From the NCBI GenBank assembly GCA_016795365.1, contig JAEUHN010000005.1, positions 124,001 through 188,000 on the forward strand: DNA of 64,000 bases, read 5' to 3'. The notes below the pieces were generated by a model that saw nothing but the letters and a program-made list of their open reading frames with translations, was not told the DNA's origin and did not search any database. Below, piece after piece: positions 22,783 through 25,534 of the stretch. Positions within the stretch are counted from its first letter, which is position 1. Every line of letters starts with the position of its first letter. The position numbers were made by a program, and so were the translations under genes. Origin of the DNA: Verrucomicrobiaceae bacterium (GTDB lineage Bacteria; Verrucomicrobiota; Verrucomicrobiia; Verrucomicrobiales; Verrucomicrobiaceae).

Positions 22783-24945
22783 ATGCCCGATCTCGACATA
22801 CGTGACATCCACATTCTTCGCGGCCCCAACATCTGGGCCAACTACCCGGTGCTCGAAGCCTGGGTGGACCTCGGCGGGCTCAATGATGCTTCATCGGAAG
22901 AGGTGCCAGGCTTCAATGCGCGGCTGAAGTCGTGGTTGCCAGGCATGATCGAGCATCGGTGCAGCGAAGGCGTGCGCGGTGGCTTTTTCCAGCGTTTGGA
23001 TCGCGGGACCTATCCGGCCCATGTGCTGGAGCATGTGACGCTGGAGCTTCAGACGCTCGCGGGGCACAAGGTGGGCTATGGCAAGGCGCGCCACACTTGC
23101 GTGGACGGACTTTACAAGGTGATTGTGCGTTACATCGACGAGGCGGTGGGCGAGGCCTGCCTGCGCTCGGCTCGGGAGTTGTTGCTCGCTGCCTACACGG
23201 GGAAGGAGTTCGATGTGAAGGCGGAGGTGGAGCGCTTGCAGCAGATCGTGGATCGCAACGCGCTCGGCCCGAGCACGACTGCCATGGTGGATGCGGCGCG
23301 CGAGCGAGGCATTCCATGGCGCCGCCTGCAGGAAGGGCGCAGCTTGATTCAGTTCGGCCAGGGCGCGAAGCAACGCAAAATCTGGACGGCTGAGACGGAC
23401 CGCACCGGTGCCATCGCGGAATACATCGCGCAGAACAAGGACCTCACACGGTCCACGCTGAAGGCAGCCGGGGTGCCTGTGCCTGAGGGACGCACGGTCT
23501 CAGATCCTGAGGATGCCTGGGATGCTGCGCAAGACATTGGCATACCCGTGGTGGTGAAGCCGCTGGATGCGAATCACGGTCGTGGTGTATTCATCGATTT
23601 GGAAACCAAGGAGCAGGTGGTCGAGTCCTACCACGAGGCGCTCAAGGAAGGCAGTGCGGTGATGGTGGAGAAGTTCATCCCTGGAGTTGATCACCGCTTG
23701 CTGGTGGTAGGCAGCCAGATGATCGCCGCCAGCCGGGGCGATCCAGCGATCGTTGTCGGTGATGGTCGGCAGACCATCGTTGAATTGATCGAATCGCAGC
23801 TCAATTCCGATCCGCGTCGCGGGGAGCTGGAGACCTGTCCGTGGGACAAGATCGACACCGTGAAGTGGGACCCTGTCATCCTCCGCGATCTGCAAAGCCA
23901 GGGCTATCAAACCGACTCGATTCCACGCGATGGCGAGCGCGTGATGGTCGCGCGTTTTGCCAACTGGGCGATCGACATCACGGATGATGTCCATCCCACC
24001 GTGCGTGCGAATGTGGTCATCGCCGCGCAGTCGGCGGGCCTGGACATCTGTGGTGTGGACGTGGTGTGTGTGGACATCAGCCGGCCCTTGGAGGAGCAGG
24101 GCGGTGCCATCGTGGAGATCAATGCCAGCCCTGGCTTGCTCATGCATCTCAAGCCCGCCGTCGGCAAGGTGCGCCCGGTTGGCGAGGCGATTATCGACAT
24201 GATGTTCGCGCCTGGCGAAGATGGTCGCATCCCCGTGATCGGCGTCACCGGCACGCATGGGAAGACCACGACCGTTCGGCTGATTGCGCACTTGATGGAG
24301 GCGACCGGAAAGTTCATCGGCGTCGCATCGAGTGACGGGGTGCGCTTTGGAAACCGGGTGTCCAAGGCCCTCGCCGGGGATCGCATCGCGGGCTCTCATG
24401 GTGTGCTCACGCATCCCTGGACAGAGCTTGCCGTGTGCGAGGCAGGATCGGAGAGCATCCTGCTGGAAGGCATGGGATTCGATCGCTGCCACATTGCCGT
24501 CGTGCTCAACGTGGGCACCGAGGAGCTAGGCTTTGCCTACATCGACACGGTGGAACAGATGGCCAAGGTGAAGCGCTGCGTGGTGGACATCGTGCTGCCC
24601 ACCGGCACGGCCGTGCTCAATGCCGATGATCCGCATGTGGCGGCCATGGCCGAGTATTGCAAGGGGCGAGTGCTCTACGTGACACGCGATCCAGCCAATG
24701 CGGTGGTGGTGGCGCATCGTGCCAATGGTGGTGGCGCCGTGGTGTTGCGTGAGGGCGTGATCTGCATCGCCGAGGGACCCGATGAACGGGCGCTCTGTCC
24801 CCTGGCGGAGGCTGGCATTCCCACCTCGGGGCCGTTTGAATTCCACACCGAAAACGTGCTGGCCTCCGTGGGTGCCGCAGCTGCGTTTGGGCTGGAGGAC
24901 CAGGCCATCATCGAGCGCCTGAGGAGTTTTGATGTTCGCTCGTGA
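22783..24945 (+). CDS. Cyanophycin synthetase-like enzyme lacking the C-terminal Mur-ligase lobe
   Basis: The product is 720 residues from the ATG at 22783 (MPDLDIRDIHILRGPNIW), against about 870-900 in classical CphA. It has the CphA N-terminal domain (~1-160), an ATP-grasp domain (~200-470; VVKPLDANHGRGV and AIVEINASPGLLMH), and the Mur-ligase-type central domain with an intact P-loop GVTGTHGKTT (487-496). It then ends with LRSFDVRS, exactly where the central domain would pass into the C-terminal ligase lobe. The ETARGGILR-type segment is replaced by CEAGSESILLEG, and the DHLG motif by EELG (580-583). There is no room for the missing lobe before apt. Classical CphA adds Asp and then Arg to a nitrogen-storage polymer; the ATP-grasp step may remain while the second ligation may be lost or need a partner. 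It could also make a different amino-acid amide. Confidence 0.8.
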   Translation: MPDLDIRDIHILRGPNIWANYPVLEAWVDLGGLNDASSEEVPGFNARLKSWLPGMIEHRCSEGVRGGFFQRLDRGTYPAHVLEHVTLELQTLAGHKVGYGKARHTCVDGLYKVIVRYIDEAVGEACLRSARELLLAAYTGKEFDVKAEVERLQQIVDRNALGPSTTAMVDAARERGIPWRRLQEGRSLIQFGQGAKQRKIWTAETDRTGAIAEYIAQNKDLTRSTLKAAGVPVPEGRTVSDPEDAWDAAQDIGIPVVVKPLDANHGRGVFIDLETKEQVVESYHEALKEGSAVMVEKFIPGVDHRLLVVGSQMIAASRGDPAIVVGDGRQTIVELIESQLNSDPRRGELETCPWDKIDTVKWDPVILRDLQSQGYQTDSIPRDGERVMVARFANWAIDITDDVHPTVRANVVIAAQSAGLDICGVDVVCVDISRPLEEQGGAIVEINASPGLLMHLKPAVGKVRPVGEAIIDMMFAPGEDGRIPVIGVTGTHGKTTTVRLIAHLMEATGKFIGVASSDGVRFGNRVSKALAGDRIAGSHGVLTHPWTELAVCEAGSESILLEGMGFDRCHIAVVLNVGTEELGFAYIDTVEQMAKVKRCVVDIVLPTGTAVLNADDPHVAAMAEYCKGRVLYVTRDPANAVVVAHRANGGGAVVLREGVICIAEGPDERALCPLAEAGIPTSGPFEFHTENVLASVGAAAAFGLEDQAIIERLRSFDVRS

Positions 24946-25000: not shown

Positions 25001-25534
25001 ATGAGTGCTTCCTCCCTCGAACGCCTTCGCTCTGCCATCCGTGACGTGCCCGATTTCCCGCAGCCGGGCATCATCTTCAAGGACATCACTCCCGTGCTGG
25101 CGGATGCCGAACTCCTTCGCCTGGCCATCGACGGCATGGCCGAGGTGGTCGCAGGTCAACGAGTGGACAAAATCGTGGGCATCGACGCCCGTGGTTTCAT
25201 CTTTGGTTCGATGCTCGCTCAGAAGCTGGGCACGGGATTCATCCCCGCACGCAAGAAGGGCAAGCTGCCCTGGAAAACGCGAGGCCTGGACTATGCGCTC
25301 GAATACGGCACGAACTCGATCGAGATGCACGAGGATGCGATCACTCCAGGCGAGCATGTGCTGCTGGCGGATGATTTGCTCGCCACGGGCGGCACTGCAG
25401 GAGCGGCGCTGCAACTGATGGAGATGGCCCAGGCCAAGATCGTCGGCGCGGTCTTCTTCATCGAGCTGGGCTTCCTCGGCGGGCGCGACAAAGTCTCGTC
25501 CTTTGGTCCAGTGCATTCGTTGCTGACGTTTTAA
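25001..25534 (+). CDS. apt: Adenine phosphoribosyltransferase
   Basis: The product is 177 residues, the normal length for Apt. The N-terminus has IRDVPDFPQPGIIFKDITPV, typical of the enzyme. VDKIVGIDARGFIFGS follows, and the PRPP-binding motif VLLADDLLATGGTAGA is at about residues 120-135. It converts adenine and PRPP to AMP in the cytoplasm (purine salvage). It starts 55 bases after the cyanophycin-synthetase-like gene on the same strand. No ribosome-binding site is visible before the ATG. Confidence 0.95.
   Translation: MSASSLERLRSAIRDVPDFPQPGIIFKDITPVLADAELLRLAIDGMAEVVAGQRVDKIVGIDARGFIFGSMLAQKLGTGFIPARKKGKLPWKTRGLDYALEYGTNSIEMHEDAITPGEHVLLADDLLATGGTAGAALQLMEMAQAKIVGAVFFIELGFLGGRDKVSSFGPVHSLLTF

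Follow-up and report, generated by a model that had tools for sequence, protein, structure and literature searches.

In the cyanophycin synthetase SuCphA1, the N domain contains a cryptic zinc endo-cyanophycinase with the motif Cx19HxxEH. Its cuts in nascent cyanophycin yield primers, and CphA1 enzymes without this motif require added primer (PMC9262961). The activity can be supplied in trans, as a G-dead, M-dead SuCphA1, or the isolated N domain, makes the primer-dependent TmCphA1 primer-independent (PMC9262961). In TeCphA1, the incoming-Asp residues are R323, N394, S396 and R458, and the M-lid comprises residues 724–876 (PMC9427784). With the H267A substitution, SuCphA1 and TeCphA1 lose part or all of their activity (PMC9262961, PMC9427784). 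The cyanobacterial beta-Asp-Arg polymerase CphA2 lacks the M-lid and the M P-loop (PMC9427784), and the N motif is absent from it (PMC9262961).

Some heterotrophs carry more than one cphA gene. Tandem copies are found in Ca. Accumulibacter and Sideroxydans, and Ralstonia eutropha H16 has two (PMC10687191, PMC5178258, PMC8560796). A review reports no cyanophycin from the two R. eutropha H16 genes (PMC8560796), which bears on the proteins described here only if that pair consists of the types A and B defined below. In the openly searchable literature, key subscription papers aside, we found no description of reciprocal active-site loss or of roles for two cphA copies. The two-gene arrangement is known; what we add is the reciprocal loss of sites and a proposed division of labour.

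Here we describe a short CphA-like protein, type A, encoded in a 64,000-nucleotide stretch of Verrucomicrobiaceae DNA (the window). From its residues, its predicted structure and the analogy with SuCphA1, we propose, with a probability of roughly 0.6, that cyanophycin synthase is here divided between two proteins, of which type A supplies primer-making cleavage in trans to a full-length partner, type B.

The window's type A ends at the boundary between M-core and M-lid

The type A gene occupies exactly positions 22783–24945 of the window (plus strand, as are all window coordinates below) and encodes 720 residues. It comprises an N domain (about residues 1–160; 22783–23262), an ATP-grasp G domain (23257–24228) and an M-core, the Mur-ligase middle domain (24229–24942), without the C-terminal M-lid. 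Pfam recognizes the cyanophycin synthetase N domain (PF18921, residues 27–134, with a structure match), the ATP-grasp domain and the Mur ligase middle domain. The earlier note on this DNA had read the same three domains and a stop before the C-terminal lobe, and Pfam and the predicted structure agree with it. The NCBIfam cyanophycin synthetase subfamily NF010623 matches type A over positions 2–716 of 871 with 939 bits (cut-off 877); for the equivalog TIGR02068, type A falls below the cut-off (762 versus 850).

The predicted structure (mean pLDDT 88.4) aligns with residues 1–724 of CphA1, with Z scores up to 47.1, a fold match over residues 4–719 and about 39% sequence identity to SuCphA1 and TeCphA1 across N domain, G domain and M-core. 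As modelled, the protein ends where the M-core would pass into the M-lid. A second assembly (L008) has a 96%-identical gene with the same end, and the remaining complete short orthologues share a common end point, differing by between a few and a few tens of residues. The next gene, an apt-like neighbour outside the system (25001–25534), has its start codon 55 bp past the type A stop, leaving no space for a lid. A frameshift or recent stop codon is ruled out by the shared end of the orthologues, the position of type A in its own clade (see below) and the 55-bp gap. We conclude that the short type A protein is real and ancient.

A Mur_ligase_C profile search of the genome found no free-standing lid gene; all seven matches fall within open frames no shorter than 439 aa. 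The earlier note had proposed this search and suggested that the protein might need a separate lobe protein, an idea supported neither by the search result nor by the state of the M catalytic residues, whose loss is described next.

Active sites of type A

Residue counts refer to a main set of 51 complete short type A sequences plus four lid-bearing N+ sequences classed with type A. In the window protein, the metallopeptidase-like site of the N domain (22954–23046) reads H58, C60, x19, H80-V-L-E83-H84 and E88, corresponding to SuCphA1 H57, C59, H79, E82, H83 and E87. The Cx19HxxEH endo-cyanophycinase motif is complete, including H57, F67, R70 and E87 (SuCphA1 numbering, here and below). Across the main set, there is no variation at H57, C59, F67, R70, H79, E82, H83, E87, G97 and Y110, whether in the short forms (51/51) or in the lid-bearing ones (4/4). 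Of the two M-core residues that line the cleavage groove, D607 is the same throughout, and R603 does not vary among the short forms.

This complete N site argues against membership in CphA2. The window protein does resemble CphA2 in fold (7ta5 and 8fxh; Z 28.2 and 25.3), but the N motif is invariant in type A, and the protein is nearer to CphA1 in both sequence and fold. Its M domain gives a mixed picture in this comparison, with the M-lid absent and the P-loop present. The earlier note had used CphA2 as a contrast for the missing lobe; since CphA2 lacks the M-lid too, the missing lid is no mark that separates the two.

In the G domain, the ATP, Mg and acyl-phosphate residues K220, K261, H267, R309, D431 and E450 are present in the window protein and invariant in 51/51. 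Position 267 (H265 of the window protein, 23575–23577) is Gln in every type B partner. The pocket for incoming Asp is changed: R323, N394, S396 and R458 read Gly, Asn, deleted and Leu. By alignment to SuCphA1, Arg323 is replaced by Gly at 23737–23739, the LSTGG loop is deleted at 23962–23973 (FANWAIDITDD versus ANLSTGGIAIDRTDD in SuCphA1), and Arg458 is replaced by Leu at 24139–24141. The same changes recur across the short forms (R323G in 49/51, residues 396–399 deleted in 51/51, R458L in 47/51), and of the four pocket residues only N394 is retained.

Among short type A proteins, the M site is degenerate. The P-loop GVTGTHGKTT (24241–24270) is intact in the window gene, where it continues as GVTGTHGKTTT, and is degenerate in many orthologues, with K499 in only 23 of the 51. 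EELG replaces the catalytic DHLG (24520–24531), and the ETARGGIL-type segment reads EAGSESIL, so that the catalytic DH and ARGG segments have become EE and GSES. On all three of these points our reading matches that of the earlier note. In short, type A resembles SuCphA1 and TeCphA1 in its complete N site and G-domain ATP residues and differs from them in having no M-lid, no M catalytic residues and no intact G-domain Asp pocket; judged from these residues, it cannot be expected to make cyanophycin alone. The earlier note had also suggested a different Asp-containing product. That suggestion is weakened, as R323, S396 and R458 are lost and one clade, described below, dropped the ATP-grasp lid and kept the N site.

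The full-length partner has the opposite losses

A full-length cphA, which the earlier note had proposed to look for, is present in the same genome (G000:C20:88098-90692, equal to L077:6098-8692) and encodes an 864-residue type B protein. When both proteins are compared with SuCphA1 and TmCphA1, the N-domain motif is whole in the short protein and entirely absent from the full-length partner. The pattern holds across 76 type B sequences, in which the N site is lost, position 267 is Gln (76/76), and the Asp pocket and M site are invariant. We conclude that the losses are reciprocal and that types A and B probably share one job. The idea of a distinct, conserved CphA-like form in the earlier note stands, its lobe protein is unsupported and its Asp product is weakened; it had missed both the N-domain peptidase motif and the full-length partner.

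Type B resembles the primer-dependent synthetases TmCphA1 and AbCphA1, which are also without an N site and keep the G and M sites, but it has Gln 267 and a type A partner, whereas TmCphA1 and AbCphA1 have His 267. The Gln is a point against the proposed role of type B, as it sits at the position where H267A impairs SuCphA1 and TeCphA1. Three planctomycete CphAs that we compared pair Gln 267 with an intact N site, so Gln 267 alone need not mean an inactive G domain.

The contrast between His 267 in A and Gln 267 in B had first suggested that the two proteins split the synthetase sites between them, with A adding Asp and B adding Arg. We rejected this as the main reading, since the Asp pocket is missing from A and present in 76/76 type B sequences, and since Gln 267 also occurs in CphAs with an intact N site.

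Type A is a single clade that accompanies type B

Our tree leaves out the N domain and the diagnostic Asp-pocket columns. On it, type A forms one clade (SH-aLRT 99), with members from Planctomycetota, Verrucomicrobiota and Pseudomonadota, and is not a recent stop inside ordinary CphA; this was the phylogenetic check that the earlier note had called for. Planctomycete type A proteins (L027, L029 and L030) retain both M-lid and M site and lie outside the branch of the short forms, and the lid was therefore probably lost once. Both members of one Akkermansiaceae A-B pair fall among pseudomonadotal sequences, suggesting that its A and B genes were transferred together. TmCphA1 groups with the His 267 CphAs, apart from type B. 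Control CphAs of neither type, drawn from plasmids, planctomycetes and solved structures, are mostly intact at all sites; in TmCphA1 and a Deinococcus deserti protein the N site is absent and His 267 is kept.

We then compared the occurrence of the two types, bearing in mind that the genomes are related and the counts are not independent events. In the 68 Verrucomicrobiaceae genomes, both A and B occur in 31 and neither in 36; the last has only an ambiguous fragment at a contig edge. Full-length B is found in 21 of 260 Akkermansiaceae genomes, and A is present in all 21. Every clear type B genome in these two families thus also has type A. A phylum-wide search of Verrucomicrobiota turned up few further genomes with CphA beyond them. 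A and B are adjacent, in tandem, in Pseudomonadota (where co-occurrence was scored as tandem loci) and in some Planctomycetota.

NCBI's cyanophycin-associated ABC transporter and a DUF1854 protein occur near A-B pairs, and a cyanophycinase occurs in two loci. In one locus (L018:13281-15937(-)), the ABC transporter (NF052233) and the DUF1854 protein (NF052234) sit between the A and B genes; other Verrucomicrobiaceae loci have the NF052233 transporter at the same place. The window's genome has A, B and the transporter on three separate contigs and has retained all of them.

These data bear on whether type A is simply a functionless, decaying duplicate of cphA. The loss of the M site, the lid and the Asp pocket would fit such decay. 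It is contradicted by purifying selection, with a dN/dS of 0.05 between the window gene and its L008 counterpart, by N and ATP sites that are invariant in 51 sequences from different phyla, and by the retention of type A with type B even on separate contigs. We consider decay very improbable.

Natural variants suggest two separable functions

In 12 Akkermansiaceae genomes, type A has lost most of the ATP-grasp Glid and Gomega, including ATP-site residues, and is 593–680 aa long where complete. All nine N-site residues that we checked are intact in 12/12 genomes. These deleted proteins form a clade. The structure of this form is predicted with confidence (pLDDT 89.0, pTM 0.86), and its best structural match is the cyanophycin-bound SuCphA1 E82Q (Z 51.3). 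For the two pairs tested, dN is lower in the N domain than in either of the other two.

The opposite pattern is seen in A2, a paralogue of type A in five Akkermansiaceae genomes (L168, L176, L178, L180 and L181) that forms one clade (SH-aLRT 100). In A2, the N site has decayed and identity in the N domain is down to 55%, against 86% in Gcore; every ATP residue is retained. Each of the five genomes also carries a type A with an intact N site. As the deletion clade keeps the N site and A2 keeps the G domain, type A appears to have two separable functions. From the residues, one would be the N-site peptidase and the other would belong to the G domain, which has an ATP site and a remodelled acceptor pocket. 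The N site is not the sole function of type A, because the ATP residues are invariant in 51/51 and A2 keeps its G domain while the N site decays.

Rates of change in the domains differ between the types. In type B, dN is higher in the N domain than in the G domain in 10/10 pairs and than in the M domain in 9/10; in type A, the M domain exceeds the N domain in 8/9 pairs and is the fastest in most, all codon-based rates coming from a simple method with several synonymous distances near saturation. N-domain positions invariant across three groups (29 type A sequences) number 29 in type A and six in type B.

Could type A be mainly a ligase, whose G domain uses ATP to activate the cyanophycin C-terminus for an acceptor larger than Asp, such as a beta-Asp-Arg dipeptide or another chain? 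Its favour lies in the conserved ATP, Mg and acyl-phosphate residues (51/51), the uniformly altered pocket (R323G in 49/51, loop gone in 51/51, R458L in 47/51), the strong constraint on the G domain in Verrucomicrobiaceae pairs (dN about 0.02–0.08) and the retention of the G domain in A2 (Gcore 86% identical) as the N site decays. However, twelve genomes have dropped the G lid and Gomega and retained the N site. CphA2, a known dipeptide polymerase, also spans the STGG-loop region with no net length change, so the deletion is unlike a CphA2 trait. We regard a mainly ligase role as unlikely.

Alternatively, type A could be a pseudo-enzyme with a structural or regulatory part: in mixed dimers or tetramers with type B, it would tune activity or bind polymer, and catalysis at the N site would be incidental. 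Gcore and M-core, through whose surfaces the CphA1 tetramer assembles (PMC9427784), are kept even in proteins without the G lid and M-lid; in the laboratory, mutant SuCphA1 works as a two-protein heterodimer (PMC9262961). A pure scaffold, however, has no need of invariant metal ligands, a general base and second-shell residues, and the M-core is the part that evolves fastest in most type A pairs. We consider the pseudo-enzyme reading quite improbable.

A model for priming in trans

We favour the reading in which type A primes type B. Type A would have arisen from a full-length CphA1 that lost the G-domain Asp pocket and the M catalytic residues, and finally the M-lid. Its N site would cut early cyanophycin chains into primers, and these would start the type B CphA (encoded at G000:C20 in the window's genome), which would polymerize Asp and Arg without an N-domain site of its own. 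By its residues, type A looks like a natural version of the G-dead, M-dead CphA1, and type B like a primer-dependent synthetase; by analogy with the SuCphA1 experiments, we infer that the pair carries out trans-priming. In most lineages, the ATP site and changed acceptor pocket of the type A G domain suggest a second, ATP-dependent role, probably present there, the main candidate being ligation to a larger acceptor.

A stronger form of this proposal is an obligate two-protein enzyme in many heterotrophs, reciprocally inactivated and working as a mixed complex, in which A provides the endo-cyanophycinase and an ATP-dependent step on a new acceptor and B adds Asp and Arg. We hold this form tentatively and consider it possible but doubtful.

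The residues indicate which copy should make primers and which should polymerize, and this division of labour is testable by mixing the two purified proteins. If our reading is true, counts of the N motif in annotated CphA1 proteins overestimate the number of primer-independent synthetases wherever type A is included. For polymer production, co-expressing both genes rather than one may matter.

Other CphA-like proteins

Several further proteins were met during the searches. The window's genome encodes a third CphA-like protein outside the window (L109:3683-5482(-), equal to G000:C27:51683-53482), a 600-aa open frame with the N domain, the G domain and part of the M domain. Its N site is lost, position 267 is Tyr, and it adjoins a cyanophycinase (L109:5472-6668(-)); a genome of the same genus (G003) has a similar open frame. 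A plasmid of Chryseobacterium sp. SNU WT5 encodes a CphA (L121:4728-7301) that has Gln at position 267 and has lost part of the N site, and there is no type A within the plasmid stretch. On a plasmid of Ruegeria sp. AD91A, the gene directly downstream of a site-intact CphA1 and a cyanophycinase (L117:7817-9553) encodes a 578-aa protein of the Mur ligase family that may be a further accessory ligase. Finally, Singulisphaera acidiphila DSM 18658 encodes a CphA-like protein (L073:10007-11812) in which the G domain is deleted and the N site and the M domain, lid included, are present.
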